In this document: positions 23,250 through 59,273 of the stretch, piece by piece
Layout: each line of letters begins with the position of its first letter
Numbering within the stretch: position 1 is the first letter of the stretch
Origin: Coptis chinensis
Lineage: Eukaryota; Streptophyta; Magnoliopsida; Ranunculales; Ranunculaceae
DNA length: 64,000 nucleotides
NCBI GenBank assembly: GCA_015680905.1
Contig: CM027384.1
Coordinates: 80,385,501 to 80,449,500 of the forward strand
Reading direction: 5' to 3'
Notes under the pieces: model-generated
Told to the model about the DNA's origin: nothing
Databases searched by the model: none
The model's input: only the letters and a program-made list of their open reading frames with translations
Program-made: the position numbers and the translations under genes

Positions 23250-26200
23250 TGGATATCTCTAATGAAGACGGAGATTGGGCTACAAATATGTGTAATGACG
23301 CATGTCCGTATGAGGAAAGTGATTTTTCGCATTAATCGAAATAAATGTTGTGGAAGGTTCAACCAATGTGAGTTTGGAAGGCGAAGATGAATCGGATGAC
23401 CATAGCATTAGTGAAATTGAAGGTTTTGAAGGACAGTCAAATGAAACAGATGCAAGAAGTGAACAAACTAATGAGAATGATTTCAATCTATTTAGTGGTA
23501 AGTTGGGAGGGGAGGATCTAGATGAAAATGTAATCATGTTTTCAATGCGTTTTAAAACCAGCAATGATGCATTTGAGTTCTACAAATGAGTATGCCAAGG
23601 TTGTTGGGTTTAGTGTGCATAAAGGGTGTCTACCGATTTCATAAAGATATCCCGATTAAAAGAAATTGTGTGCGCTCATGCCAAGGTGAGAAAGAGGTGA
23701 AATATTTGAATATGGAACACAAAAGGAAACAACGTGAGTTGTCTAGATGAAAGTGTCTTGCGATTTTTGAAGTGATTTTTGATATTAAATGCAATATGTG
23801 GGTTGTTAATAAGTTTGTTGTTAAACACACTCATCCAATTGTGCCTTATCCTAGTTCGATATTTGGTCGCTCACATAGAAAGATGGGCAGTGAAGATGCG
23901 GCTTTGGCAAAGAGTCTAATTTATGTGGGCATTAGACGATGTCAAGTGATGGATTTCTTAGTTTATAGGGTTGGCCAGTTTTGTAAAGTTGGTTACATAA
24001 GAAAGGATTTGTATAATTATATGACCAGGATGAGGAAAATTTGTTATATGAATGGAGATGCTAGCACACTTGTTTCTGCATGAAAAAAACAAGTCGAAGA
24101 TTGATCCGAATTTTACTACTCATACGAGTTGAATGAACTTAGCCAATTGGTCGATTGTTCTCGGGCGATTTGATGTCTCGTCAGATTCTGAGTTGTTTTG
24201 GTGATGTGTTATTGTTTGATTCAACATACCGGACAAATCAATACAAAATGCCAATTGTCGATTTCTTTGAAGTGAACAATCATAGACAAACTATTGTATT
24301 TGGTTTTTGCAGTTATGACTAGTGAGTCGGAAGCGTTTTACATTTGGGCGTTAGAGCGTTTTCTAACAGCGATGGGCGGTAAGACACCTAAGTCGGTCAT
24401 AACAGATGGTGATCATGTAATTCGCAAGGCTATTAAAGCTACCTTACCTAGTGCTAGACATCGCTTATGTGCTTGGCACGTTTTGAAAAATTGTATTGAC
24501 AATGTCCGTGTTTCTGGGTTTCAAAGGGACTTTTGTTCACTCATGTTTATGAAATGTTCAGAAGAAGAGTTTGACCAAATGTGGGAACATTTGTTAGAAG
24601 CACACCAGGTCCATGACCATGAGTGGGTGAAGAAGATATACAAAAAGAGGATGAGGTGGGCAGAGGCATATCTTCGAGGCGCATTCTTTGGTGGTTGTAG
24701 AACCAACCAACGTTGTGAAAGCATGAACTCTGTTATACGACTTCATGTAAAGCCTGGTTTAAAAATGGTTGAGCTCTATGGAAAAATGAAGCTAGCACTT
24801 GAGAAGATCCGGCACCGTGAGCACGAAGAAGAAGTTATTACCATACTCTGACAACCAAGCCAGTAATTGTGACCTACCTGACTGAGTATGAAAATCAGGT
24901 GAACTCCATCTATACAGGGGCGGCTTTTAATGTGTTTAAGATGCAATTGTAGCAAGAGGCATTGTACATTGTTGATTCAATGAAGGATCATTAAGGTGAC
25001 AATATTCGTTACTACACTTTGCATTGTCATTTGTATAGGCACTGCAAGTCTATTGTGGAATACAATGTTGTTGATCAAAATGCTAAGTGTTCTTGTGGTC
25101 TATTTGAGTAATTTGGTTTTCCATGCCGACACATCATTTCCATCTTAAAAAATGAAGACGTCGCTGAAATACCCTCTAGTCCTCTAGTTACATGTTATTG
25201 AGGTGGACGCGATATGTGAAAACGGTCATTCATACTGTTACTTCAGTTAATGTTCATAATGAAGCAACTTCTGCTATATATTTGTTATAGTGAGCTTATG
25301 GGGATTTGCAAGAATATTTGTTTGAAGGCCTCCAAAACTAAAGAAGCTAGTGAAGAGTTCAAAGATTTCCTACATTCTTATTTTATGTCAAAAGAGATCC
25401 CATCAACTGCTGAAGAAAATCCTCAAGTTCCTGTTGATGAGCCATCGATACTCACGGAGATCGCCCACTTAGAATCGATCGTGATCCACCCGGGGTAGCA
25501 CCTAAGGGTCGACCAAAAAGACTTAAAGGACACAATGAGACAAGGAAGAAAAGTTGTGGCGAATGTGGTGTTGTTGGGCATACAAAACCCACGTGCCCAG
25601 AAACATCGAGAAATTGGGGGTAACTAGTTATGTTCACCGCTTTAGTTTTTCCAATACAAGTATCTATATTATTGAAGAACTATAATTTTTAAACATGTTG
25701 CGTTGCTAGTACTTCTATTTTTTTAATAACTACAATGCTATGTGTGTGTAATAGGTCCAAGTACAAACTCAAAACGTGTGAGGAAATGTGCTCGATCAGC
25801 CGATTTGAGCGAAGAAGAGGAGATACATTCTACGAGTGGTAGGTACTGCCATTTGCTCAATTTTGGTTTCCAAAGCTCAATATAATTCTCAATTTTTGTT
25901 CTAATATAGGTGCGTGTGGTTTTGTTGCTACGGAGAATTCTGATAAAAGGAAAGGAAGATCTCGAATCAGCAGGTGTGGAAATTGCAGTGAAACAGGGCA
26001 TACGAAGACTACGTGTACATGGCCTAAACCTTAATCACAAGGTAGGTACTGTATCGAGTGGTATATAGAAGGAACATGCACTGAGGTGGTTAAAGCATAT
26101 TGAGTAGTTATATTTGGAAGATTACAATATCTTGAATTATGTATATACTTATTTAATATTAGTATTTTCAAAATCTTAGTATTTCATTATTGAATTTATT

Positions 26201-26436: not shown

Positions 26437-26821
26437 GAGTATTCGGTTTCTGTTGGATAGTTTTAAGATTTTGTTCCACGAAAGAGATGTATCGATGCAT
26501 TTGGAGTACAGGGAAGAAATGTGGAGAATCCTTGATAGTAGAGTAGTACCTCCAAGGCTTTTCATTAAGGGGAGATATATTGGTGGTGCAGATGCTGTTG
26601 TGACATTGCATGAGCAAGGGAAGTTGTTGCAGTTATTAGAAGGATTGCCGAGGGATCAGTCCACCAGTCCGTGTGACGGGTGTGGAGGAATGTGCTTCAT
26701 ATTATGTTATAATTGCAATGGAAGTCGTAAAATTAGTCCAGATGGGAGTGACGATGGCTTGTCAGTTCAGTGCCCACAGTGCAATGAGAATGGGTTGCTT
26801 GTATGCCCAATGTGCTGTTGA
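26437..26821 (+). pseudogene. Glutaredoxin-like protein, 5'-truncated
   Basis: The open frame reads ...FHERDVSMHLEYREEM, then PPRLFIKGRYIGGADAV, then a zinc-binding C terminus CDGCGGMCFILCYNCNGS and CPQCNENGLLVCPMCC with a proper stop. This is the plant glutaredoxin-domain family with CX2C repeats (At5g39865-like). The first half of the thioredoxin fold, with the region of the usual active site, is missing, and no ATG begins the domain; an in-frame stop lies just upstream. It starts about 60 bp after the last FAR1-RELATED exon, so it was probably joined there by rearrangement. The remaining 120 codons are open. Confidence 0.8.
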
Positions 26822-41179: not shown

Positions 41180-41772
41180 ACCACGTGTTGTTGCTTCTTC
41201 GTCCAAGCACCATGTACCATTGCTTCTTTTTCATGTTTGGACGGTGGTTCTATATATGATGTTGGGTCTCATGGGTCTTTCCCGATCATTACCCAAGCGC
41301 TGGTGTACATTAAGGTTTAGAGTTACTTGTTAAGAGTGAGAAAAGGAGATACCATTGTCATTTTTTTTATTGGGCCTGACTGCCCAATTGAGGTTTAGAA
41401 ATATTGGCCTATTTGGTGTTCATGTATAGAAATTCGAAAGCAAAAATAGTGATTGTATTCTTGAATGTTGAGTTCAACAAGTAAATCAAGTATATTGATT
41501 CAGAAGAATATATCGTAGTCTGATTTCTATCCTTAAGAGTTGCTTTTTCTTCCATGAGGATGACACAATTTCAGAATTTTCAGTCCATTTCGGTTACATT
41601 AAACAGGCCAAAATCTGCTATTTAACAATGCTAAAAGTAGGTGCTAAAGTGCTGATTTGGCACAAAACTTGATGAGTCTCGTCTTTTCGTGGAAAAATCC
41701 CGTCCAGTAGGAAGACAGACAGACATTTCTCCTTAACAAATTTGTGGACTGCCGTCTCTATTCTGTTTGATA
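41180..41772. other. Probable 3' UTR and spacer
   Basis: Follows the stop codon of the unknown gene. No further exon seen. It ends at TA before the Helitron terminus. Confidence 0.45.
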
Positions 41773-41800
41773 CTAGTTAATGCCCGTGCCTTCGGCACGG
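41773..41800 (-). mobile_element. Helitron 3' terminus (minus orientation)
   Basis: On the minus strand: a perfect 7-bp stem CCGTGCC-GAA-GGCACGG, then 11 bases GCATTAACTAG, then T. Stem, spacing and CTAG-T are a textbook plant Helitron 3' end. The same family end recurs at 54066. The body lies at higher coordinates; the 5' TC end was not found. Confidence 0.8.
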
Positions 41801-42984
41801 ATTCCATAAAATTATTATATATTGTAGCCCCCCTAACAATTATTGATCTCAAAGTACAATAATTAGGCAAAGGAAGAAAACTTTTTTTATTGGCTTTTAC
41901 ACTTAATTACTTGCCTATGGATAGACTTCAACTTTGCAACAACATTTAAGAGCTACACCTCTTCCTCCGAACACGATAGTAATTAACTATTGAAAATAAT
42001 TTAAAAAATTGAATCAGCAAATACTTGAACATCACTGAGAACTCTGTACTCTTCACAAAATACTATGTTGTATAGCAGTATGTGAAAGACCATTATCTTC
42101 TTTAGTTTCGTTACTTGTTTGCATCTTAATCAGTAACTCTTGGTGATTTTCCAAGTAATTCTTTGATTCTATATACTTGTAAGTTATGTTTATTTATGTC
42201 TAAATGGTAAAATCCAGCTAAATATTGTATAGTGATGAATTTGTGCAGAAGTCCCCAACAGCTACAATGAATATCATTAGTGGTTGCTAGATGCTAGTAT
42301 TGGAGAAGTGTAAATACTCTCCATTGTTCCAACAGTTGGTCTGTGTAATGGTAAAATCTGATGAGCATGTAACAATTCAATTGCTCGACAACTTTTCACG
42401 GCACTACGTGATACATTCAAATCTTACCAAAAAAAAAAAACAACCCACGTATCACTGATTATACTGAAAGCACAAATCACACTTGATCTCACTCACTAAC
42501 ACACATTTTTACTATTAAGATTGTGCTAGCGATATCTATATATATTACACTTTTTCTCACATTGTCAATCGTGACTTTTTATTCTATAAATCAATTTCAA
42601 AGAGGAAGCAGATTTTCAGATAGCAACGGCAAGATTAAAATTTCAACACCAACACTACTTCCAATGCCGATTCAATACCTCCATCGCCAACGGCAAAGTG
42701 AGAGGTGTAACAATCCAGTGAATATATTTGATAATAGTATGCCAAAGTACCAAAGTACCGGGTCGGAACCAACGACCACCAAAATAAAAATAAACGACTC
42801 CTAAACATAACGATAATAAATGCATCATTTTAGACTGTTAGATGAAAACAATATATGCACTAAGTAGTAGTCAAAGGTGTAACACATATCAATTTATTAA
42901 GCGGCCTATATTGCTAGTAGCATAGCCATCGAGAATCGGGGAACAAATGCAACAAAATATAAGTTACTTGGTCAAGCGGTTTTA
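41801..42984. other. Putative Helitron interior, gene-free
   Basis: AT-rich. The only long frame (93 residues, plus, 42523-42804) has no recognisable motif. By position it would lie inside the Helitron ending at 41773. Confidence 0.4.
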
Positions 42985-44345
42985 TTTACAAATCGTGTAA
43001 AGTTTGATGACTTGCACTTCATCGTAATGTTCGGATATAGGGATGTCACTTTTTCCAAGTACCATCTCTATGAGATCTATAGCGGATTTGGAAGAATGGC
43101 CATTCTTTGTACATTGCTTGCAAATCTTCGGTATATCCTCTTTCGATGCACCCTTTAGGCGGCCACCAACACCAAGCCAAGCGGGGAGAACAAATATTGT
43201 CTCAGGTCCATGCAAATACCCATGGTATTGCACCTAAGATGTCCGATTCTGTTGAATTCTTGCTTCGCGGCCGGGTCCGCTTCCTATGTTGAGGAAACCA
43301 AGCTCGACTTTGTGGCGTAACCCTAGTTAAAGTAGGCAAGAAAGTCCGGGTTGTCATATACAATCCGATAATTGTTGCAACTGAATTTGGAAATTTCTTC
43401 CATAAGGTTACACCAATTTTCTTCTCTAGGGGTATTGGAGGCTATAACCGAAGTCGGACAAAAAGATATGTTTAAACAAAGGTTACAGAATTTCTAATTG
43501 AGCGTGTTCTAATGAAGAGTGTAACGCTCATTGGAAAAACCATTTGACGATTACTATAGATTTTTTTATATATAGATTCAAGAGGATGAAATAACCATGA
43601 ACGAGGCGATTTTGAAAAAGGTAAGACACTGTGCTATTATTGAGCGTTAGCTAGCAAAAGAATTATCTAGTAGTATCCAAGTTCGCAAGAATCGCATGAT
43701 GGACCTACCATTACGTAACCGGTGGTTGGGACTGAATGGCAAGATACGATGGGTCCACCACCACGCCCAATACTTCCTCCCCGTCCATGGAATAGTGTTA
43801 CTTTGATGCCATACTCATTGGGTAGCCACAACGTCCTCTTGGGCTTTGTACGGTTCCCACGCTTGCAGTGAAGCGGTCAACATCTTTTCCAGAATCTGAG
43901 TACCCAACCATTACCTGTCCACAATAACCCAGTGGAGTTACAGAAGTTTCATATGGCCTAGACAAAATTATCCCATTTATTTATAATGCGTACCTCTTGT
44001 TGTCCATTGTGGTTTTTTATGATGTGCTCTCGATAACAATCAATTGCTAACAACTTTCTGATCACTGAACCAGCTCCTCTCAAGTCCTCGACGGTTTCAA
44101 ATAGAGGGACCACTCTCAACCTATAAGCAACCAAAGGGGTCAGGGTACCTGGATAGAGCTGGTTGGTCTCCTTTCCTGAATAGAGCTACTTGCCTGCTGA
44201 GCCAAAACGACTCCATAGCTACTGGCCTGGATAGAAGAGCTGAGACCTTGGCTGGTACTCGATGTTCTTGTAGCTAGAAAAGGCAACGAAGTTGATCCAG
44301 AGATGTGATCTTCTCGCGGAGGAAGCACTCAATTCAGAGGCCTTG
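42985..44345 (-). pseudogene. Phosphoenolpyruvate carboxylase fragment, bacterial-type-like
   Basis: PEPC carboxylates PEP to oxaloacetate in the cytosol. Pieces read on minus: about 44115-43994 (VVPLFETVEDLRGAG, SVIRKLLAIDCYREHI, donor after NGQQE); 43914-about 43716 (acceptor, [30 protein letters not shown], catalytic-loop region); about 43450-43315 (PREENWCNLMEEISKFS, NPDFLAYF); and about 43290-42985 (AIPWVFAWT, FVLPAWLGVG, MYKEWPFFQ, AIDLIEMVLGKSDIP). The PREE...NLMEEIS phrase and the Ser-rich stretch upstream (44345-44140) recall plant bacterial-type PEPC (PPC4). About four or five frame changes and the loss of the rest of the protein make it a pseudogene. Introns are retained. It lies 1.2 kb inside the Helitron end at 41773, in the same orientation, which fits gene capture. 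Confidence 0.82.
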
Positions 44346-44534
44346 CCTAAGAAGCTAACTTTGCATGCGATACACGAGCATCGGGCTTGTTGGCATCCGT
44401 CGCCGATTCCAACCGCCCATCATCACCCGAGAAAAGTTCAAATCTGTTGTAGGTTGAGGGCGTATGACCTTGTGATGTGTTGCTTGAAAGTCAGTGTTAG
44501 GGGGTGGAATTATACATTCCTGAATTTCTGCTGA

Positions 44535-44817
44535 GAAACCTTGTTAGCTGTCGGACCCAGACCTTCCACAAACCGCAGCAGGCTCTCCTTGTATCCATAG
44601 CCACCCATCCTTCCGTTGTCAATCTGTAGAGTCTCAAGAATGTAATCACCATAAACTTTTAGGAACTAAATTTTTTTCACAGTGATAAAGAAGACTTACG
44701 CGCACAATAGATTTGGAGCAAGTGGCTTCCTTTGAAATTAATGACTCGGTTTCATTTAGGAAAGATTTAAAAGGCCTGTAACTTGAACGCGGTTGTCCTT
44801 CTCTAGTTCCTGGAAAA
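44535..44817 (-). other. Two exon-like segments of unknown origin
   Basis: On minus, 44817-44697 reads from an acceptor (TTTCCAG) through GTREGQPRSSYRPFKSF to a donor (GTGCGC|GTAAGT). About 44635-44535 reads LQIDNGRMGGYGYKES then LLRFVEGLGPTANKV. Neither resembles PEPC. They could be 5' exons of the same transcription unit or a second captured gene. Family not recognised. Confidence 0.4.
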
Positions 44818-44859
44818 AGTAAAGGAAAAGAATAGAAAATAGAAAATCCCATGGTCAAA

Positions 44860-46270
44860 TTTATATAACAAATCTAACGGCATTTTAGTATATTACATTG
44901 ATTACATAAAAACAAAAAAGGTATTTTTACATTTGATATAATATCAGTTGGATGGTTCAACTTGCACCCTACATACTAATTACTATGCATACTTTTTCTC
45001 TAGGAGTCTACTGAGGGCATATGCTGATAGTCATAGAGTGACACAAAAAGTCACGTTGTGCCAAAATTTTAGCAGCAAGTCTTCTATACAAATATAACTT
45101 TGAGTTAGTAAACAGTATATAAGACGTACTTGAAGTGTTAGCGTGGATAAATTTTAAGCATATGCATGGATGAAATTTGAATCACCATATCAAGAATGTG
45201 ACTTACCGTTTGATCGCGACATTGGAAGTCATTCTACTCGATCTACCTCTTGTATTAAGCTCAAAGGTTGCAATGTAGAATTTAAACTTCGGTTTCAAAT
45301 TTGGGCTTTCGCCATGTCTTTTTTCATCAAGAATTGTGACTCAAGGTTTCGGTGCTTCGTTCGAGGGTTGAACCACTGCTTAGTTATTCGTCTATAGTTT
45401 GAGCCTGAAAAACTCATCGCATGTTTTCATAATAAAGGTAAGCAGGTATTTTAGGCAACATTCTTTGTCAAAAATGACTAAGAACTGTTGAGACTAAATA
45501 GTAAAGCAAGCACTGATGATTTGAAGAAAAGATGGTGTTTTGAGCATTGAAAAGCATCGCATTCTCAAATATCAAGAAAACGTCGTGCTATAAGTATTCA
45601 AATAATTAATCAATCACAGTCCAACTATGCTCCCATAAACTCAAATATGGAAACTGAGTCATGTTTCACTAATTAGATATCACAGGATTCGACTAATAAT
45701 TGAGGCATAGGGTAAAGATCTTGGAATTTATATTAACCGCACTGAGTGGACTACTAAGACACTGATTCTAAGAGATTTGTAAGCTCCTTGCTCTGTTTTT
45801 TTCTTTCATAGTCATGAAATCCATTGGCTCTTTAATAATCTCATAGTATCCTTCAACCTTCCAAAGCAAGAAGTCCGCTATAAATATTATTGAACTTTGA
45901 CATTGGGGGAAAATAAATCAAGTACAAACCTCTGGGATCAACCGGGTACAAATAAGATCTCACGGTCTTTCCCAAAAAGAATCCAAGAAGTAGAATACTC
46001 TCATGAGCGAGCTATGCCCAAGTATTACCTTGAGTTTCATTAATCAAGGATTTATGTTCATAAATACTAACCTCTCTGATATCTCAAGAACAACGCGGCG
46101 TTTTTTTTCTCGGCATCCGAGGTGTCGGTCGCTCGTTGATGGTTGACTGATACAAGCAAAACTACGCTTTTTACATAGAGACTCATTGCTACAAAACATT
46201 AGCATAGAGCGTGTAGAATTTTACATATTTATGGCAAAACAGAAGCTCACCATTGTTGCCCAAGGGATTT
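44860..46270. other. Gene-free interval
   Basis: No exon with family identity. The plus frame of 75 residues at 45170-45397 is unsupported. Confidence 0.4.
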
Positions 46271-46988
46271 TCATTCTCTACCCTTTGGAGTTCCTGCAAG
46301 AGCAAATGAGACTCTGAGCAAAACCTCACCGAGGACATTGGATTGTTAACGCGTCTAATTGACCTTTCTGGCCAAAGAGCAAGTGAGCTGTTCAAGGATC
46401 TAGGTCTATAGGACAAAATTTGAAATACTTAATAAAGCATTGGTAAGATCTGCTTGCAATAGGTAGAAACCATGCTTGAAGTACAAAAAGTATAGTGAAA
46501 TAGAGAGAGAGAGAGAGAGAGTACCTGAGTGCAATGTGAGAAAGAAAGGTAGAGAGTGCACCAATGACCTGTTTAATAACAATATGCAATAAAACTCATA
46601 GAAAACAATACAAAATAGACAAACTCCTGAAAAAATTCCTATTTGAAAACATCATTTGCACTGAAACGCCGAATGAAAATATATTAATTTAAACAGTTAA
46701 AAACATCTCAATATCTCAATCTTCAGATTATGGTAAAAAAAATATATGATGCCATGAGAATATAATTGAAAGCGCAGAGAGAGATGGAGATTACCTGAGA
46801 AAGAAGTAGCGATATGGGGATCGGAGGGAGGAGTTCTGGTATATACTTGAGATGGTTGAAGCACTGAGAGGTGGAAGGAGAACCCAAAAGGTTGTGAAGC
46901 TTTTCACAATTAAATTCTAATCTCGGAGAACGAAAGGTTTGGATACGAAGGGTTTTCACATTTAAGAATTTGATTTATATCCCTAATC
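46271..46988 (-). other. Exon-like 5' leader behind promoter block 1
   Basis: On minus: a leader from about 46985 containing AAACCTTTCGTTCTCCGAG, ending at a donor TTTCTCAG|GTAATC (about 46794); then a small exon ending TTGCACTCAG|GTACTCTC (about 46522) beside a (GA)n run; then a segment ending TTGCAG (about 46290). No long open frame follows. This looks like an untranslated leader of a minus-strand transcript whose body is uncertain. Confidence 0.4.
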
Positions 46989-47065
46989 TCACGTGGAGGC
47001 AATTGTGACCCTCGATTTATACCCCCTGAAAACGAATCCTTGCCGCAAGTCAGGAGTTGTGTTCA
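46989..47065 (-). promoter_or_regulatory. Repeated promoter-like block 1
   Basis: On minus: GGATTCGTTTTCAGGGGG, TATAAATCGAGGGTCACAAT, then CCACGTGAG. The first of six copies. The TATAAAT and CACGTG are intact. Confidence 0.65.
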
Positions 47066-47299
47066 TTGTCAAATAAAATTTAATTATAAAAATAATAATA
47101 ATAATAATAATAAAAGAAAGAAAGAAAGATAAGACGTCCAACCACAAAGCCTTTACATCTCTTATCAAATGTTGTAGAATGACTATAAATGGAGAAGCAC
47201 GCTGAAAGAAACAACATGATCAACAAACTGAAAGAATCAATTGTAGGCATATTATCACTACGTATGTGTGCTGTGACACGAATTGCTTCTATTTTATTT

Positions 47300-47335
47300 A
47301 TTTTTTTATTTTATTTTTTTTTTTTTTTTTTTTGT
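47300..47335. repeat. Poly-T / TTTTA tract
   Basis: A T-rich run with about 22 uninterrupted T at the right end. It lies between promoter-like blocks 1 and 2; nothing else was recognised in 47066-47509. Confidence 0.8.
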
Positions 47336-47509
47336 TTCTGAAATAGTAATTGATGGTATTGGTATAAATGAATCCTCATAAAATCTGTAGGGAGAACGAT
47401 AGCTACAAATAGAATAAATTAATGAGTTTACCATAGTTCATAGTTAAGAAGGTGGTTAATCGATTTCCTACAAACTAAAGAAAGAGTGTACAAACCAACT
47501 CACACGCTT

Positions 47510-47595
47510 TGGTGGCACTATTGTAACCCTTGATTTATACCCCTAAAATTGAATCCCAGCCGCGAGTCAGAAAAGTGAGTTGTTTTGTAAAGTCG
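47510..47595 (-). promoter_or_regulatory. Repeated promoter-like block 2
   Basis: On minus: TGACTCGCGGCTGGGATTCA, then TATAAATCAAGGGTTACAAT and GTGCCACC. The G-box core is lost but TATAAAT remains. Only 450 bp separate it from block 1. Confidence 0.6.
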
Positions 47596-48421
47596 GCATC
47601 CCTAACTTTCGGAATAATTAGGATATGAGTGGGAGCTTGGGGATTTATATTATTGAATGCAAAGATCTGTTGGAAGAAAATCGATCAAGAAAGTAAATGA
47701 CAATAAGAATGCTAGTAATACCATAAAGAGAGAGGGTGGGCATTTTACACATATATTAGTTCCACCAAAATTATCAAAGGAATATATATATACAACTTAA
47801 GCCGGGTCATTAAGCATAGGAGGAATATATATAATATAGTAAAGGGTCCATCATACACAAATCATCTATCATGGATAATAACATTTTTCAAACTCTAATA
47901 CTGAAAAAGAAACATGTAAGAATATGTTATGAGGAATTTCATTAAGAAATCAACAATTTAAAAAGAACAACATTATTCAGATAAACTCAAATTCCCCTTA
48001 AGTCTTGTTAACTTGTAACATCCGGTGGTCTTATGAGGATAAAACTTTATTCACAGTTATCTTGTATCTACAGTGGCATGTTCATTGCAAATAAGAGCCG
48101 TGAAAAATATTTGAAGCATGGGAGAAGTCGAAACCACAGTGCTCTTATGAAAGCGTTATGCACAATTACCATACACAGGCAGAAATCTTTAGTAAGAAAG
48201 TGTGTCGAGAAGAAAATTGAAATGATACCACATTAGCAGGAATCTCTTTCCTCATAATTTTGTCAAATCTGCATATAATGTATGAGAATCATTTTACTTT
48301 ATAGCATATGCTAGAGTTATGGTAAAATGTTATTCTTGATACAATTATTAGATACATCTAACGTTAGCAATAACATTGAACATCACAAAGATAAGAAAAA
48401 GAAAAAGAAAAAAAAGCTTAC
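47596..48421. other. Presumed intron or body behind block 3
   Basis: No exon firmly recognised on the minus strand after the donor at 48421. The 67-residue plus frame at 48033-48236 has no known motif. A 16-bp AAAAAGAAAAAG tract lies near 48395-48416. Confidence 0.35.
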
Positions 48422-48486
48422 TTTGTGGGAGTATTCTCAAAGAGGAAGTGAAGTAGGCTACTTGCAGCTTCTTCTTCAGAAGCCAT
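48422..48486 (-). CDS. Putative first coding exon behind promoter block 3
   Basis: An ATG in excellent plant context (CACCAATGGCTTC) lies about 240 bp downstream of the TATA box of block 3. It encodes MASEEEAASSLLHFLFENTP and ends at a donor reading GTAAGC after CCACAAA. The 65-nt exon is the best-formed start among the six blocks. I do not recognise the protein and find no second exon, so the gene may be truncated or its downstream exons too short to see. Confidence 0.4.
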
Positions 48487-48705
48487 TGGTGAAGAAGAAG
48501 AAGAAAAAGACAAATGATTGCTTATAACCCTAACTCTACTCTTAAAGGGTTTGAAGGGAACGGGGGTTTATTTTATTTCCAATTCGTTGATTGTGAAGAC
48601 CAAAAGATTTATCTTTGTTCGGTTTCCATAATTAAGACTGGGAAATAACCAAGGGTTTGCACACAAAGGGTTTTCACAATTAAGACATTTAATTAATTCA
48701 TAATC

Positions 48706-48796
48706 CAACGTGGCGGCATGGTAACCCTCAATTTATACCCCCTCAAATTGAATCCTAGACGCGAGTCATAAACCGAGCTGTTTTGTTAAGTTGATA
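48706..48796 (-). promoter_or_regulatory. Repeated promoter-like block 3
   Basis: On minus: AACTTAACAAAACAGCTCGG, CGCGTCTAGGATTCAATTTG, GGGGGTATAAATTGAGGG, CCGCCACGTTGG. Followed on minus by AAACCCTTTGTG and then the start exon at 48486. Confidence 0.65.
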
Positions 48797-50884
48797 TAAA
48801 ATACTAATTGATGTGACCTATAGTGTTAGGTCACAAAAGTTCACCTGAATGCTATTTAGAGTATCTACTTTGAAACCTATCTTTGGGAAATGTATCATAA
48901 GCTAGGCACCTAGGTTAATTGTAAATTAACATTCTAAATTGAATTAGCTTAAAGCACATATTCTAAGTCATGTTAGTCAGGATAATAGCGTCTAGCTATT
49001 GCCTCTGTAGGATTTGGACATTTTCAAAATCTGGCAGATCAAGTAGGTCTTGAAGGTTCAACTCTTAATCAAGGAACTCTTTCTTTAATGTGCATACGGA
49101 TTTAATACTCCAAATATATGGTACTAAGTCATGTTAATAAGTATATGAACAACATTAAGAACTTTGAACGTCTAAGCTTCACATATTAGAAAACAGTAAA
49201 CTTAATTTTAGCATTTAACCTTAAATCCTTAATCAATAAAATTAATCTATCAAAGAAGAGCGGCAACATTGACCTTAAGTTGTTATCAAAAGGTGTGTCT
49301 AGACTGGTGTGATATATTTCTAGTGGCAGTACACACTCAAATTATTAGTTGAAATATGCATCACTATGAGTACTAAAACTATAACAAATATGTTGGCAAT
49401 GAATAACATTAGTCATAGCATCGCGTAAAGAACATACACACCAGCAGCACCCCTCCACAGTGAATTATTTGCTCATAAAATCAACCTATCTTCTTCCTTC
49501 TTGGGAAACCTTGGGAACACAGTTCAAAGAAATATAACAATTAAATTACATTGAGTCTATTGGGCTGAGAAATACTTTCCAATTAATTTTCATTTGTATA
49601 AACGACAACATCATATGCACACATGAGTTTGACCAAAAAAGAAGAACCCAAATCTTACCAAAAAATGCCACTTTCAATGGTGGTACGATTAACTCCAAAA
49701 AACTGCACAGAGTTTTTAAAAGAGAGGTAATAAAGAACAATCTTGAAGAAAAAAGAAAAGAAAAGACGACTAAAAATGATACGTTAAATATTTTGTGAAT
49801 GTATTAATCATTTATCTTAGCTTATTCCAACTCGAGGAAGTTCAATACTTGACCAACTAACAAAATGCTTTAAAAAAAAAAAAAAAAAAAATGCATCCTA
49901 CTTTACCAATCCTTCTCAACACTTCACATATAAATACACAATAACCTCAGTCAATCATCAACTTCATAAAAAAAAAGGAACAAATTTAGAAAGGGGTGTA
50001 TCCAACTAACTATACCATTTATCCTTTGCCACCAATAAACCATTTAGAAGTATACGTTTTCAGAAGTATCCTTTGCCACCAGTAAACCATTTATTCCAAC
50101 TCCGAAATCGTTTTTAGAAGTATATGTACGTATCCCTGAAAGTGTAAATGGAAGAAAAGATAACTGCCATTACTTTTTTAGTAGACATATTTATTGATAA
50201 CAAAATCGAGAAAATCATATATATCACAAATATAATAAGCAATTGTGTTCTTGCAATTATGAATTTATTCACGATTTGGGTTTGATTTATGCCTACCTTG
50301 TTTATGCTTTTCCTGATCTTCTTTTGACTCCAATCAAAATCGGTGATTTCAAAAGTGACACACAGATTAGAGGGGCGATGATTTGAGATGACTCCAATCA
50401 ATCTATGGCAAAAGAACGCAACACGAAATAATTTGCAGGAAAAATAATAGCAACCAACCTTTTTAATTATACACATCTCTTTGCACTCACATGTTGTAAC
50501 TCTATTTGTATAGAGACTAAAAGCAGGTGGAATCCCTTGTTGTATTGTTGCTTTGCTTTTGCCTTTGAGCATAGTGGATTCGGTGTCACGCAACAGTGAA
50601 TCCTGACATTTGTAGGCAATAGAAGGACTGTCAAGGATCTCTCAAAAATCACATGAAGAAGAAGTGTGAGGGTAGAGTAAAAGAGACGGGAAGAACTTTG
50701 GAGAAACGAATGGTTTTGAGGTTTCTATTTTTTTTTCTCATTTAATTTTAGTCTAAATCATTTACTTTTAGTCTAAAACCTCTGAGAGTGAGAACGAAGG
50801 GTTTGCCGATTCTTTTCCCTTTTCACAATTTTCATAATACGGCTAATTAATTAATTTCTAACCTCTCTCATCTAACCTCTCTCA
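48797..50884. other. Body behind promoter-like block 4
   Basis: A minus frame of about 152 codons from an ATG near 50572 to 50114 lies 340 bp downstream of block 4's TATA. It is AT-rich, lacks known motifs and is probably chance. An A-run lies at 49870-49890. No other exon recognised. Confidence 0.35.
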
Positions 50885-50980
50885 TACTGTGGCACATTGT
50901 AGACCCTCGATTTATACCCCCTCAAAATGAATCCCAGCCGCGAGTCAGAAAACAGCTTTGTTTTGTTATATTGATATATA
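50885..50980 (-). promoter_or_regulatory. Repeated promoter-like block 4
   Basis: On minus: GACTCGCGGCTGGGATTCAT, then GAGGGGGTATAAATCGAGGG, then TGCCACAGT. Downstream AAACCCTTCGTTCTCACTCT matches the leader of block 5. A (TA)n run at 50977-50995 sits just upstream. Confidence 0.65.
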
Positions 50981-50996
50981 TATATATATATATATA
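50977..50996. repeat. (TA)n microsatellite
   Basis: About ten TA units, followed by CGGTCCGGCTATCTTGACAT. Confidence 0.85.
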
Positions 50997-53975
50997 CGGT
51001 CCGGCTATCTTGACATACCAAGCCAACCGTTAGATCTTGTTGAATCTAACGCTCTAGATATGCACTACACCTAGGCGTCACATGCAATTTCAAGAGGACA
51101 ACAACTTAGAATGGATAAACTATAACCAATAAGAAAAAGGAGATGTACTATCACAACAGCACCATGATATAATGATAGACGTAAACTGTTTAAGGTTCCT
51201 ATGCCGCTACCCTTAAGCAGATGTAAAATGAATTGGGAAAAATAAAGACAAAACAAAATGAATTGCAGGCGAGGGAGGGGGTGGGGAAAAAGTCCTTTTT
51301 GATAAAACTAACTGTTGGCAAAGGGGTGCTTTTTTGCAATGCTAGAAGAGGAGGTGTAGCTCTTGGTGGTTTAATTTTCCGTGTTTTTTTTCCCTTTTTT
51401 GTTGATTTTACCTCTTGGCTTGGTGCAAAAATAGTTTGTAAAATGGAGTTATGTTATTATCATAGTCAACTTTCCTACATATTAATCTTAAGTTCTAAAT
51501 AAGTTGCAATTTTAAATTTAATATAATACAAAACCTTTTTATTATGTAGTTTTGACTGGATAATATATGACCCAACCAAATCATAGACTCAACATCAAAC
51601 AAATTAAATAAAAACGATGCATTTTTTTTAAATGACATTTGTCTATAATAGGTACATACCTTAAAGAAAAATGGGAGCGCAATCACTAAACTGAAGAGCT
51701 ATATGGTTTATGACATTACAGGCTTTAAAGGACTTGAAAGAACAGACCCTTTAGAATTGAATAAATATCGAGAACCATTCTCTCCTTCCGAACAACTATT
51801 AAAGAATTTTTAATAAACAATTGAAAAATGGAATCAACAAAGAAATTAGACCAAAGTTAAAACGCCACGTTACCCCCTCCCAAAGTTCAAAGCATCCTAG
51901 GACTAATAAGGTTCCTAAGAAAAAGCAATCATAAATTAAAGTTTAAGCTATTGAGGCTTACCAATTTTGACGTAAAATGTTCGCTTTCCAGTGCTATTTT
52001 TTATTTGTGTAAACTTGCTATTGAAATTTGTCTCGCTTCCCTTCACCATTCATGGTGTTGTGGCTTTAGTACAATATTTGATTGAAGAAAACCATCAAAG
52101 GATTTTAATCCAGCTGCAGTTATATCATTAGCAGAAAAATCCACTTCTTTTGCAATATGAAGCAATTCAAAAAAGAAAAAAATAATAATTAGAAAAAGAA
52201 CATTGACAAACCTCTGACATAGCAATCAGAAAATGAGGAAACTATCAAGAAGAGAATCAGATGAGTAGATTCTTTGAGCACATAGAAGAAGTAACCTGGT
52301 TGTAGCCTAAGCTCTCGATTGAAAAGAACAGTCCATCCCCAAATTTTAGACCTATCAAAAGCATGTCTTTGGTGAACAGAGAGTATAATTGTACATGAAT
52401 TTAATAAAACTGGTCCATAATCCAAAAGGAGCTATCTATCATAGAAATTAATACTAAGATATTTGACCCTCCTTGACTCAACTTATAAAATTTGACTCAA
52501 CTTATACCTTCCCATAATAAAACAAAATCAATGAAGAAAGAAAGAAAGAAAAAAATTAAAGAAAAGTCAAAATAAAATTTGGTTAGTGTTAAATGTTTGT
52601 TTACTTCAACTATTTGGTTAGTGTGTACGCACTATCTTATCACTTGAATCAGGGCTATCCGCCTATCCGCTAGAAAGTTGAGCACCATAACAAACATTCC
52701 ACTTTTCAGCCGATAATGCAACTCTAATTAGTATGAGTATCTCCATTTACGGGTTTTAACATTACAAAGAAGCGTGTAAAGCTTCAATGCCATCACCTCT
52801 AATCTACAACCAAATTGTTCAAACCTCAATGCCTACCTTGTTCACCTGGGTTCTAAACCATGCAACAAAAAGAGCACCCACCCCAGGTCAAACGCCACTT
52901 AGACATATTTCAGAAGTCTCGCTGCACCATTTGGAATGGATTGAGGAAAGCGGTGGCCTCCTATATGCCCCGGTAACATCTCTGTAACGACCTTTCTGAT
53001 CTCTGTCTCCGAATGCTTCTGCTGCGTGCAACTAAGAGCTCATTAGAATCTGGCAACCTCAGTTCCTATCTAAACTGAAAGCGAATCAGAACCATGCCAA
53101 ACATCTGCTGAAATTAGTGGACATCTACAATGAGTAGCTCCCCCTGGAGCTAAATCGGGCTGTTCTGCGACGAACCATGTGATGCCACTATCTGACCAAC
53201 CTGGATCAAAACACTGCGGGTACGTGGAGATCAATTTCAGTGACGTCCATATTTAATCTATTTTAAAACCCAATAGTTCAACTGAATCAAAACAGAAGCA
53301 AAAGAAGAAAAGAGGATAGAAACTTTACCTTGTAAATGCATCAATTCATCGCAAATTTGGCACGCATTAGTTATGTCCATGCCAATTGATTAAGCGCACA
53401 AATCTTCATGAAAAATGCTCAAGCCTGCACCAATTCCCAACAGTTTGAAATACTCGAGTTCTCAAAAGTTCCACAAAAATATAGTGGAACACCAAAAATA
53501 AGAAAAGCCGACATGTGAAAGAGGAAAACAAACATATTGATACAAATTAACACCCAGTGATGCAATCAGGCCTAAATCAAGCAGTGAGAGCGATTTATTT
53601 AACAATATGCAAGCAAGGAAATTAAAAGGTATAAATAATCGCATAATCGAACATGAGTATGTGAAATATCACAATTGAAGGAGAATTTAGGTGGGAAAAC
53701 TTACATCGCGTGACAGAATTTAGAATAATTTGATTGACAGTTATCCATGCATCTTTTTTCTTCAATGGAGTTGCTTACCCAAAAAACTTGAGTGAAGTAG
53801 AATGAAAGCTCAGAGAGAGAGAGAGAGAGAGAGAGAGATTAAGTTCAATATTGGGGAAGATGAAAAATAGAGAGAAACTAATCCACCGCTGAGGAGAAGT
53901 AATTGCCATAATGGCGAAAGTGAGAACGAAGGGGTTTGCACTCCGAAGGGTTTCATACTATTAATTATTCCTAAT
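50997..53975. other. Gene-poor interval behind promoter-like block 5
   Basis: On minus, block 5 is followed by a leader with AAACCCCTTCGTTCTC, an ATG starting MAITSPQRWISFS that stops after about 34 codons in a (CT)n tract (plus 53811-53838 GA), and a donor at TTTTTTGG|GTAAGC (about 53778). A possible exon lies at about 53225-53110 (minus: CFDPGWSDSGITWFVAEQ) with no family I can name. Nothing else recognised. Confidence 0.4.
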
Positions 53976-54065
53976 CGACGTGGCAGAACGATGGCCTTCG
54001 ATTTATCCACCCTTAGATTGAATCCTAGCCGCGAGTTAGGAAAGCGAGCTATTTTGTTAAGTTGA
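53976..54065 (-). promoter_or_regulatory. Repeated promoter-like block 5
   Basis: On minus: TCAACTTAACAAAATAGCTC, CTAACTCGCGGCTAGGATTC, then GGATAAATCGAAGGCC and GCCACGTCG. The TATA core is altered to GATAAAT. Its upstream (plus-right) edge TTGA abuts the Helitron terminus, whose insertion falls between A and T as expected for Helitrons. Confidence 0.65.
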
Positions 54066-54093
54066 CTAGGTAATGCCCGTGCCTTTGGCACGG
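54066..54093 (-). mobile_element. Helitron 3' terminus (minus orientation)
   Basis: On minus: CCGTGCC-AAA-GGCACGG hairpin, 11 bases GCATTACCTAG, then T. It differs from the end at 41773 at only a few positions, so both belong to one family. The 5' end is not located. Confidence 0.78.
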
Positions 54094-54584
54094 ATTGTTT
54101 TTGAATTTCTTGATTTGCATTGATTTTTTTAATATTATTTATTTATTTATTATTATTTTTTCTTGTTTAGATTCACTAATATTTCTCCTAGCCACAGTTT
54201 TAACAAACATCATCTCTATGTTCGTCTCTTATTTAAATAATAATTATTGATTCATTATTTTATGATTTTGGTACAGTTTTTTGTCTTGAAGATATATATT
54301 TTAATTCATGTATTTTTCACAATTTCAAGAAATAAAACAAAAACAAAAAGTACTTGTGAAAAATTTATCCAACCGAAACAATTTTGACTAATATGATACA
54401 TTAAATGTGCTTGTCCACAAACTTTATACATCACACATGTTTTGGCAATATGTATCCCTAACATGTATATACACCCTCCTAATGATTTAGTTTCCGATAT
54501 TAAAAAATAAAATAAACTACAAAAAATAATAATAATAATAAATAATAATAATATAAAAATATATATATATATATATATATATAT
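54094..54584. other. AT-rich interval
   Basis: No gene; ends in (AAT)n and (TA)n tracts (54527-54584). The 103-residue minus frame here is low complexity. Confidence 0.5.
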
Positions 54585-54970
54585 GGGGAAAGATAGAGGC
54601 ACATTCACTGTAGCCACATTCTAGCCACATTGTAAATTAATCTAAGCAAAATCATGGATTTAAAAGTTGAATTAAATGCTGAATTTTTGTAGATATAATC
54701 TCCCCACCATGGAGAACATGCTCACAAAAATTCATCTCATTCAAAGAAATCTAACCTTAGAACATGCTCACAAAATTTTTGGACCGTTAGATAAAGAGCT
54801 CAAAAATGAACACTAATTTTTACATGGTTAGACATATCCAAATATTATAATTTTTTGTGAGAATGATCTTTATGGTGGGAAGATCATCTCCACCAAAAAC
54901 CAGACCTTAATTCATTTGTATGTGAAAAATGTGGCTATAATGTGCGCATAAGAATGTGCCTCTATCCCTC

Positions 54971-54973
<3 letters not shown>
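54585..54973. mobile_element. MITE flanked by TA microsatellites (Micron-like)
   Basis: TIRs of 22 bp: GGGGAAAGATAGAGGCACAT at the left and the inverse of GGGGAGGGATAGAGGCACAT at the right (20 of 22 matching over the full TIR). The element is 389 bp and sits directly between (TA)n runs on both sides. Insertion into TA microsatellites resembles rice Micron MITEs. No coding. Confidence 0.82.

Positions 54974-55033
<60 letters not shown>
54974..55033. repeat. (TA)n microsatellite
   Basis: About 30 TA units immediately right of the MITE. Confidence 0.9.
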
Positions 55034-55037
<4 letters not shown>

Positions 55038-55557
55038 CAAAATATGAATATGATATACGCTCCAGCTAGCCATGAAGGCACAAATTATGTTGTCGTCTTT
55101 TATCTTTGGTGCTATCTCTACACGTCTATGAACACCATGTCGCAAAGAATTTTGGCAAAACCTTCTTTGTGTTTGTTATTTTGGGATATTGAAGCAATAC
55201 AATCACTGTTGACATTGAAAATGTAAATAGAAAACATATGCAAATTGCAAATATACCAAAGTTATTGGGCAGGTAATTGAACCATACTATACAATTGAGA
55301 ATATTCACTGCAACAGTTAACTACACTTTGAGCAATCATTTGCACATTGTAAGGTATATCAACAAATGTTAATTTGTTCTTGTTCGACTCATGACGGCAC
55401 ACCTGACTCATCTCTTACTTCAACGTAACCGGTAAAGTATAAGACATGAAATAAAAAATAGAAAAAGATTTGTGTCAAATTCACTCTACAAAAATTATTT
55501 TGAACATACTTCAACGGACTGAACATGAAATTTTGTAGTTCAAAAAAAACTTAATTC

Positions 55558-55560
<3 letters not shown>

Positions 55561-55608
<48 letters not shown>
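55561..55608. repeat. (TA)n microsatellite
   Basis: About 23 TA units. The flanking intervals 55034-55560 and 55609-56640 hold no recognised gene. At 56168-56290 a GC-rich phrase (CCTAGCCCGTG repeated three times) looks like the fragment of an unidentified repeat. Confidence 0.85.
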
Positions 55609-55611
<3 letters not shown>

Positions 55612-56640
55612 GGTGACTACATGCACCGGAGGTAATGTGACTTTTCCTAAATTTTATAATTTGATTTCATTTTATGGTTTTGAATTGTTTTTGTTTATTT
55701 CATTTTCGTTAACTCATAGTTTTTCTATAATTCCAACTGTTCATCGAGACGATGTAAACCAACTATCCATTTTAAAGTGTTGCATAATGGTTTTGTCGCC
55801 CTCATATTTTAACGCCTCGCATGTTATTGACTTCATTGAAATCCAACTATTTTAGAGTATGTCTCATCCTATATTTTAACCAATTAACTCTCAGAGTAAT
55901 ATCCAATTCATACTTGTCATAACTTTCCGATCCGTTTTAAATTCTTGTAAGCTATCAATTAAGAAATTAAAATACCCATGAAAAAAACCTTATTGAACTC
56001 GTTGATCATCTCTATAAGAACTTCTCAATAAACTTGTTATTTTTTATTTTGATTTTTAAGTAGACTTGTCTTTTAATAAATTGCTTTTGGAAAAATGGTA
56101 GAAACCTTAAATAATTTGCTAATTTTATTTTAGTATTTTAGATAGTCTAAATCTTTGGCATATAGTGTAATACCCCGGCCCGTGTGGGAATATACTGCAT
56201 CGCCTAGCCCGTGAAGCGAGGTTGAAACAGGTACTTGGAAAGGTGCCTAGCCCGTGGGGCAAGGGTCACCTCATGTATGAATTCTAGCATCTATGAAGTT
56301 GTTTGAGATATGAGACATAAGTAATTCATTCGCCAAATCCCAACATAGAGATTTTTTTTTCCGGATTTATGGATTCATGGAAACTATGTAGTGAAGTTTG
56401 CACATGTAGGAGTAGTCATAGGATGGGTGGCCTCCTGAAAACTTGTTGTCGGTGTCAAAAAACCTTACATTGTGGTGACTATGTGGGAACAATCGATGTG
56501 TAGGATTTTTGATTCCTTAAATATCAACTTTGATAATAAAATTTTTTTTTGAAAATTTTGATTGAACTGAGTTCTTTATTTTAATTTTTGAAATATTGCA
56601 AAAGAATTAATTAATTTGATATTATTAGAAAATTATTTTT

Positions 56641-56875
56641 TAATTACCTAATTAAACCATTATTTATTGATTTGCAAAATTAATAAAAAAAATTTAACTA
56701 TCATTATTTATTGATTTAATAAATTAATGAAAAGTTTTAATTACCAATTAAACCATTATTTATTGATTTGCTTAATTAATAACAAATTTTAACTATCATT
56801 ATTTATTGATTTAATAAATAGAAGTCTTAATTACTATTATTTGATTTGGTAAATTAATGGGAAGTCTTAATTGCC
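56641..56875. repeat. 98-bp AT-rich tandem repeat
   Basis: Two full copies and a partial third of a unit with AATTACC(T/A)AATTAAACC, ATTATTTATTGATTTG and TAACTATCATTATTTATTG. Confidence 0.8.
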
Positions 56876-56885
56876 ATCAAACTCC

Positions 56886-56974
56886 AACACGTGGCGGAAC
56901 GGTGGCCCTCGATTTATACCCGCTCATATTGAATCCCAGCCGTAGGTCATAAAACTTCCCTCCCTTGTTATATT
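56886..56974 (-). promoter_or_regulatory. Repeated promoter-like block 6
   Basis: On minus: GACCTACGGCTGGGATTCAA, then GAGCGGGTATAAATCGAGGG, then CCACCGTTCCGCCACGTGTT. TATAAAT and CACGTG intact. No start exon recognised behind it. Confidence 0.62.
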
Positions 56975-57502
56975 AGATTCTGAAAATTTTAAGGCTTGTA
57001 GCTATCTGTCTGTATGCTGGGATCACACCAAACATCAAATATCAATCATTAAAGCACACAATATCATATCAATTTTAGCCTTACAGGTGGACGCAGTACA
57101 CAGAAGGCATCCAAGACTAATTAGCAATTCGCTTTAATTTAATGAACAAATGTAGCCTCATACCATTGCAACTAACATAGATAAACACCATTACTAGAAA
57201 AGCCTTATACTGTCAGAGGAATACAACTAGACCAGACTGCCCTATTTTATTCAAACAAATGCGGATAATCAAAAAATTTACGACAAACTACAATTTAACC
57301 ATGATCGGAGACACCTCGCAAGGCTTACATAACTTGATCTTTAGCTTGCTTTGCCAATACACTGATAACCACACCCGTACTACATCCACACAAATGTTCT
57401 AACTTTACTTTTTTTGATGGTTGGACATCTAAATGCATTTCTGGGGCATCTCTAATTTGTGCAGATTTTTTTGAACACGGAACCATTGGCAACATTGCGT
57501 TC

Positions 57503-58553
57503 TTACTGACTTTGGGCAATGCATGCATAAAAAACGCGCTTTTTGGATTTGATGATTTGAGATAGAACTGATCCCGCCTCAGTACCTGCAAATTACTTCA
57601 ATAAGCGAACTCAAAGCACTCCAACAAACAGGTCTAATTGCATGATAATATCATCTAAGAGGTAGTTAAAGTAAAATCCATGTAACCACAAATCTAATCA
57701 ACATGAATCAAAACATAAAGAACTACCTAAAATTAATTTGATAACAGAACGTGCACCCATTTGTTCTGCCGCCTTTTTGCTTCTGGCGGGAGTACCGATA
57801 TATGTTTTACCATGGAAATCCAAAGTTGAGATGAACACTGGAATAAGACAATTTGACTGGGTAGTTGTATAAATAGTCATTTCCAAACCAATCTTCACAG
57901 CAAATTCATTAAGGATAGATTTGCAATAGGTCATATCCTGCAAGAGTAACAAAAACAAATAAAAATATATAACCTAAGAGGAAAAAGTAGAACAAGGTTT
58001 AATATAATAGTAAAATAGCATAAGTAAGGCTTAATTAAATCAAGTCACAACATAACTATGACTTGGACATGTCTTTCTTCAATTATAGTTAAAACTTTTC
58101 TTCCTTAATACCATTTATTCCCCTCAAGTTCTTACCCCAAGACCTTGATACCAACCTCTCAAGTCTTGACCAGTAGGCCACTGGACGACACTATGATTTG
58201 GATTTTGGACATGTCATCCAAGTAAAATAGTCTAATCGCCATATAACATGAGTACGCATACGGACATGTGTGCGCGCACACACACAGACACACGCATGCA
58301 TGCAACACACCTCATCTATTATTGGACATCCTTTGTCTTTGACCTTATTCAATATAGATTCCAGAGCAATTTTAGCAGTATTCTGTTCTGCCTCTTTCTT
58401 ATGTAGAAATGTCTCAACTAATATATAATTTCCCCCATCAACAGAAATAGAAGATCTAAATTGTGGCACAGTTCCAAAGCATTCAGTAGTATAGGTCGGA
58501 AGTGGCAGTTTGGATTTCTGAGCATACTCTTGCAATCGGTTCTTATGCATCAT
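57503..58553 (-). CDS. Double-stranded RNA-binding protein (DRB family)
   Basis: Binds dsRNA; plant DRB proteins partner Dicer-like enzymes in small-RNA production. Exons on minus: 58553-58311, 57937-57727 and 57585-57503, all GT-AG, joining in phase to 178 residues. dsRBD1 spans about residues 3-70 (HKNRLQEYAQKSKLPLPTY ... KKEAEQNTAKIALESI) and dsRBD2 about 84-150 (CKSILNEFAVKIGLE ... RSKKAAEQMGARSVI). Exon 3 then reads GSVLSQIIKSKKR, a phrase typical after dsRBD2, and stops soon after. The next frame in the same exon continues as LPKVSKNAMLPMVP...PSKKVKLE to 57325, as if the C-terminal tail were lost by one small frameshift near 57515. Both RNA-binding domains are whole. The start is the first of two adjacent ATGs; an upstream untranslated exon is possible. 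Confidence 0.85.
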
Positions 58554-59273
58554 GACTTCAATTAGACCACGGGGTGTTCCCAATTAGACAAAAAAATAAA
58601 ATCCATGCCAACAACTTTTTTGCACCGAGTTAAAAAGTATCTAGACAAAAAAAAAATTATTAGAAGGGAAAAAGCAAAAAACCATTCTGCATATTTAATC
58701 TATGATACTCATTGTCAGACAAAAAACCATTCCGCAGATTTAATCTATGATACTCATTGTCAAAGGTAATGTAATAGGTGACTTTAAAACCTAGTCAGAT
58801 TCTGTCTTTGCATTAATAGGCCATAATTATCCTCAACGATATTTGGTAACTATATAATTCATATATATGAACATGCAAACTATAAACTATAATAGTCAGA
58901 GTTTGTATATTAACTATAAACATGCAGACACATGAACCACCTCAAACACACAACCAAACTTAATGAAAAAAAATCACAAGTTAATCTATCTTATCAAAAC
59001 AAATGTATCTTTCTATGACAGTCAATCTCATTTTAATCGAAAACCTTGAATTGCAAATAGAATCAAATCTTAGTTAAAAGATGAAACCAAAATTGAGAAG
59101 AAATCAAAGTGAAGGCTGAGAGAGAAAGAGTACCTATCAAAGAACTCGTGCCTTCCTAATCAATCTAAAAGGGCGTGGCTCCTGTCTTTTATTTTAGGGT
59201 GGAGAGTGTTTTTTTATTTTTTGGTGGAGGAGGGCGATGGAGGATGAAAATGAAGAGTGATTTCTTTCTTTTT
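58554..59273. other. Upstream region of the DRB gene
   Basis: Probable 5' UTR intron and promoter. A 43-bp unit (ATTTAATCTATGATACTCAT core) is duplicated in tandem at about 58678-58764. No other gene seen. Confidence 0.45.

Follow-up and report, generated by a model that had tools for sequence, protein, structure and literature searches.

The question raised by this locus is why a TATA-containing block should recur six times in one orientation, with largely unrelated sequence between the copies. A sequence-only reading had offered two answers: a decayed tandem gene cluster, or an unnamed element that carries its own promoter. The window analysed here is the whole 64-kb stretch of DNA, C8:80.39-80.45 Mb in a genome of 936 Mb; gene content (an ammonium transporter, a MULE transposase and others) and size indicate that it is probably from a plant. 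The best explanation overall (probability about 0.85) is that all six blocks represent 5′ terminal regions of Helitrons from a single family and that the larger Helitron of the window, H1, was built by self-insertion.

Six blocks with a common edge

All six copies of the block were present in one orientation on the minus strand (46994, 47511, 48710, 50889, 53980 and 56891), as described before. Five were 64-75% identical to a reference copy in an ungapped alignment of 84 nt. A 32-nt core allowed up to 9 mismatches gave five matches on the minus strand, none on the plus strand and none in 20 mononucleotide shuffles; the sixth block, B2, lies outside this count by a one-base shift and was seen separately. 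The TATAAAT string was confirmed in five of the six blocks, the exception being B5 with GGATAAAT. The ACGTG core had been claimed for four blocks, but the exact string occurred in only two of six, and ACGT in four. The leader claimed for at least three copies was found in three of six when one mismatch was allowed, but its exact form, AAACCCTTCGTTCTC, in only one. The upstream edge of the block is TC, clear in B3, B4, B5 and B6 and worn in B1 and B2 (hyphens mark element boundaries here and below):

46989..47077, minus: B1, worn 5′ terminal block (alignment and edge reading)
47510..47594, minus: B2, worn 5′ terminal block (alignment and edge reading)
48706..48794, minus: B3, inner 5′ terminus with A-TC (edge reading; relative at C5:55.03 Mb)
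50885..50974, minus: B4, inner 5′ terminus with A-TC (edge reading)
53976..54065, minus: B5, outer 5′ end of H1; its TATA string is lost (copy edges)
56886..56977, minus: B6, 5′ terminus of H2 with A-TCTAATATAAC (edge reading)

Upstream of the A-TC of B3 (48795-48840, minus), a hairpin-like sequence, TGTGACCTA...TAGGTCACA, followed by TTAG was noted by eye and may be the eroded 3′ end of another Helitron.

Genome-wide, the block core gave 349 matches at up to 3 mismatches, dispersed on C1-C9, and a 3′ motif gave 239 matches at up to 1 mismatch; neither reversed pattern matched anywhere. Pairing of the two ends was tested with 100 listed of the 349 blocks and 100 listed of the 239 3′ ends. Among these listed places, all 27 pairs within 15 kb were on the same strand, with the block upstream in 23 and downstream in 4, the latter as expected for tandem neighbours. 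At 35 kb, 29 of 31 pairs among the listed places were same-strand and 2 opposite-strand. From forty scored 5′ ends came 11 further pairs no more than 15 kb apart, none of them on opposite strands; one is the window's own 3-bp junction, put on the wrong side by the script.

A 12,293-bp Helitron with five 5′ ends

Five of the blocks lie in one mobile unit, and the sixth begins its neighbour:

41773..54065, minus: H1, composite non-autonomous Helitron of 12,293 bp, 5′ TC at 54065 and 3′ CTAG at 41773
41773..41800, minus: 3′ terminus of H1, a hairpin (7-bp stem, 3-nt loop), a 7-nt spacer and CTAG (fold)
54066..56977, minus: H2, second Helitron, CTAG at 54066, with related units at C5:86.1 Mb

A 121-base query over B1 returned 213 candidates, and among the 40 that were scored six matched at 100%, the window included (C6, C7, C8 and C9). 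The stretch 41772-54065 recurs almost whole at C8:36.3 Mb (94.9% over 12,445 aligned bases) and at C9:4.6 Mb (94.6%), so B1-B5 belong to a single mobile unit; its 41.8-50.0 kb part is also found at C9:59.6 Mb and C6:25.7 Mb (93.7%). The flanks of the two near-full copies differ, and similarity ends at the TC and CTAG edges of H1. On the minus strand the 5′ start of H1 reads TCAACTTAAC. An A precedes the 5′ TC in five of five other copies read at that end (C8:36.3, C9:4.6, C3:8.5, C9:59.6 and C6:25.7 Mb), and a T follows the 3′ CTAG in all five copies read at the 3′ end. The canonical 5′ TC of Helitrons is thus present in H1, H2 and five other H1 copies, and the 3′ end shows the canonical CTRR behind a short hairpin, whose DNA fold has an energy of -8.3 kcal/mol (z -3.3, with an equally good fold in 2 of 200 shuffles). 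H1 is a Helitron that has a single 3′ end and a single outer 5′ end, with four more 5′ ends in its interior.

H2 stands upstream of H1 in head-to-tail order: its CTAG (54066) abuts the TC of H1 (54065) with zero bases between them. The copy at C9:59.6 Mb, related to H1 and some 13,057 bp in length, also adjoins another Helitron, and for this copy an empty site was found at C9:59.72 Mb. The site is 99% identical (725/733, the mismatches including a one-base gap that arose because one flank base too many was cut) and reads CTATA^TCAATTTAAC. The copy is proven to have inserted between the A and the TC of another Helitron's 5′ end, with no target duplication. Insertion at A^T is thus documented by an empty site for one copy and by A and T flanks for the others. 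An LTR, TIR or MITE element was rejected, since direct reading shows two dissimilar ends and the one empty site lacks a target duplication.

The same observations bear on the decayed gene cluster, in which promoters would have outlasted the gene bodies. Collinear blocks with TATA and a leader, some with ATG exons after them, speak for it. However, a cluster predicts local copies only, whereas the 349 matches are dispersed over C1-C9 and have defined element termini; B1-B5 travel together, the TC edges are sharp and an empty site exists. We regard a cluster as extremely improbable: each of the six blocks is a Helitron 5′ terminal region. The other answer held in its element part, since there are many dispersed copies with defined ends; the element is a Helitron and the block its 5′ end.

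Coding relatives were sought with PF14214 (Helitron_like_N), which gave 157 matches in the genome, with 150 of 2000 candidates scored, and none in 14 control genomes. Three of the 40 scored 5′ ends had a listed match (among the 150) within 20 kb, always downstream on the same strand. Among 100 listed blocks one had a listed match within 20 kb, on the opposite strand, and among 100 listed 3′ ends two had one within 30 kb, one on the same strand and one on the opposite. At C2:33.0 Mb, a B5-like A-TC 5′ end is followed downstream, on one strand, by Helitron_like_N, PIF1 and Pif1_2B frames; these Rep/helicase frames are separated by stops and may be either broken or spliced, and the nearest same-strand family 3′ end among those listed is 32 kb away from the 5′ end. 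Several family pieces also lie within 33 kb at C7:80.80-80.83 Mb, possibly a nest of insertions.

Head-to-tail joins and the proposed growth of H1

How did one Helitron come to hold five 5′ ends? Its copies are of two types, which share 41773-50004 and diverge beyond. Type A comprises the window, C8:36.3 and C9:4.6 Mb, together with C3:8.5 Mb by its coordinates and 5′ end; type B comprises C9:59.6 and C6:25.7 Mb, and C5:0.48 Mb as far as it was read. The outer unit 51765-54065 also occurs at C6:56.27 Mb, fused to a different Helitron body, and a relative at C5:55.03 Mb has its own A-TC start at the block homologous to B3. A search inside H1 for a 3′ end of the family pattern found none. Neither join, at 50004 or at C6:56.27 Mb, has a canonical CTAG, so recombination or deletion contributed as well.

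Serial self-insertion with inner 3′ ends lost or skipped, as proposed in maize and Fusarium, explains these observations best. This would let transposition start at the outermost TC and end at the last CTAG, so that H1 would grow on its 5′ side, every step adding one 5′ block and whatever host gene piece the newcomer had brought.

CTAG directly followed by TCNANNTAACA occurred at 118 places at up to 2 mismatches (31 exact), and the control gave 0. When 93 exact 3′ ends were compared with 100 listed of the 118 junction places, 17 were followed by the exact TCNANNTAACA, 6 by a copy with one mismatch and 1 by a copy with two. On its own, TCNANNTAACA is uncommon: with both strands counted and Helitron ends included, the 64-kb window has 7 copies and 200 kb of other loci have 34. 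It is a motif only: of three CTAG-TCNANNTAACA junctions read onward, those in the window and at C9:59.6 Mb enter the block, and that at C8:36.3 Mb does not within 45 bases.

Tandem neighbours could also be rolling-circle concatemers rather than insertions at a resident 5′ end. Like units are indeed arrayed at C5:86.1 Mb, where H2-like elements stand head-to-tail about 2.5 kb apart (L049, C5:86107500-86117400) with joins of CTAG-TC once and CTA-TC, lacking the G of CTAG, twice; and the excerpted text of PMC5876387 names tandem arrays and head-to-tail junctions, known from plants and bats, as evidence for rolling circles. However, the bodies of H2 and H1 differ, the C9:59.6 Mb copy has its empty site at the A^TC of another Helitron, and the termini downstream of exact junctions are varied. 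We therefore consider concatemers an unlikely source of the tandem neighbours in general; for arrays of a single element, such an origin is likely. CTA-TC was rejected as a general junction (4 matches at up to 2 mismatches, 1 truly of that form). The junctions at L049 and at a further locus, L052, have one extra base before TAAC, which places them outside both the CTA-TC and the CTAG-TCNANNTAACA patterns.

More tentatively, beyond self-insertion as such, the A^TC junction at a resident Helitron's 5′ end might attract insertions preferentially, conceivably because a transposase bound and nicking at that point could accept an incoming strand. A ratchet could follow, leading to same-strand arrays and then to composite Helitrons: each round would bring a promoter-like 5′ end with a captured exon, and one unit would gain several promoter-exon modules.

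Two pieces of host genes were recognised in H1:

43002..44146, minus, sense to the Helitron: captured PEP carboxylase fragment, no intact gene (PF00311)
47597..48543, minus, sense: captured 5′ part of a HIT-family gene, with leader, ATG exon and intron (match at C13:538 kb)

The PEP carboxylase fragment consists of five collinear PF00311 pieces, three above and two below the curated cut-off. It is 89.6% identical to a host copy at C8:11.467 Mb, whose gene status was judged by eye, and lacks an internal 351 bp. Intron loss was rejected because the gap, also by eye, ignores the splice borders; a deletion is more likely. The HIT-family part lies downstream of B3 and is 74% identical to C13:538 kb, where HIT-domain pieces, one above and one below the cut-off, follow the matched part; we take this candidate host gene to be HINT1. 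The captured exon differs in 98 of 1165 pairwise comparisons, above the 3080 of 80858 for the element, and so shows no sign of being kept intact. Pfam searches assigned five of ten H1 reading frames to PEP carboxylase, one to a weak match below the cut-off and four to none; of eight window frames, one had a weak below-cut-off match and seven had none.

A putative promoter or left end, and known systems

A TATA string at a fixed position (55-56 from the aligned edge in five of six blocks) and the leader suggest a promoter, and the sequence makes it plausible that the block works as a TATA promoter directed into the element. A transposase-binding left end fits as well: the block keeps a constant relation to the terminus, B5 has lost TATA and constraint is uneven. 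The block could be this left terminal sequence and nothing else, its TATA look being incidental and driving no transcription. Elements with unrelated bodies share the block at a fixed distance from the terminus, and the left terminal sequence used for a bat element is given as 150 bp in the excerpted text of PMC5876387. Against this stand the placement of TATAAAT, the conserved pyrimidine-rich leader and the sense ATG exons downstream of B3, so that we hold the purely terminal role to be a serious possibility, somewhat short of even odds. The conserved 5′ region may be both transposase left end and TATA promoter. Divergence among copies is low in B1 (0/1210 pairwise comparisons) and B3 (4/1540) and ordinary in B2 (36/946), B4 (19/575) and B5 (12/499), against overall values of 3080/80858 and 285/11925; low block divergence was rejected as a sign of promoter function because it is not uniform across B1-B5.

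H1 and H2 represent a new Helitron family. Head-to-tail fusion itself is known behaviour, here unusually clear, and the family is known in kind, since Helitrons with multiple 5′ termini have been described in maize and Fusarium. The comparisons that follow apply to the excerpted texts of the papers cited. In maize, several 5′ termini occur in 17.6% of helAs (Dong et al. 2011, PMC3288121), with stepwise capture of gene fragments and a nested-insertion model as here, and the maize CTAT 3′ pseudo-ends resemble the CTA-TC joins at L049 and L052 (PMC3288121). In contrast to that work (PMC3288121), species and family are different here, one 12-kb unit holds five promoter-like 5′ regions, there is an empty site at a resident 5′ end, and H1 contains no family-type pseudo 3′ end. 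The FoHeli composites of Fusarium likewise have several 5′ termini but only one 3′ terminus, are explained by self-insertion and include one insertion near another element's 5′ end (PMC5148889). Their termini are non-canonical and fungal, whereas those of H1 and H2 are canonical, and their duplicated 5′ pieces are typically <200 bp, compared with up to about 3 kb, host gene pieces included, in the present family (PMC5148889).

Helraiser and Helibat share the TC and CTAG ends, A^T targets without duplication, and a 3′ hairpin that acts as terminator and whose bypass takes in neighbouring DNA; HelibatN3 has captured a promoter and first exon (PMC4778049, PMC5876387). Extension of the bat Helraiser was shown on the 3′ side, whereas growth of H1 is inferred on the 5′ side (PMC4778049, PMC5876387). 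The wheat Xuan-Feng elements form an autonomous/non-autonomous pair with TC, CTRR and a hairpin; the 966 bp upstream of the Feng8 coding start were tested and are a promoter, whereas the promoter here is putative, and no stacked 5′ ends are described in the excerpted text (PMC13286980).

Promoter-like repeats thereby become a readable case of Helitron fusion and growth. The record of self-insertion is unusually complete, with an empty site and two alternative 5′ halves on a common 3′ half, and two captured fragments have candidate host genes. How multi-terminus Helitrons arise could be tested directly if resident 5′ ends prove to be preferred targets. TATA and leader repeats of this sort should not be annotated as a gene cluster.

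The window also contains the following features:

14788-17371, minus: ammonium transporter gene in two reading frames (PF00909)
24294-24851, plus: piece of a MULE transposase (PF10551)
26453-26821, plus: frame resembling glutaredoxin, with a cysteine-rich domain at its C terminus (PF23733, PF00462)
58191-58583, minus: frame with a double-stranded-RNA-binding domain (PF00035), about 1.2 kb upstream of the H2 5′ end
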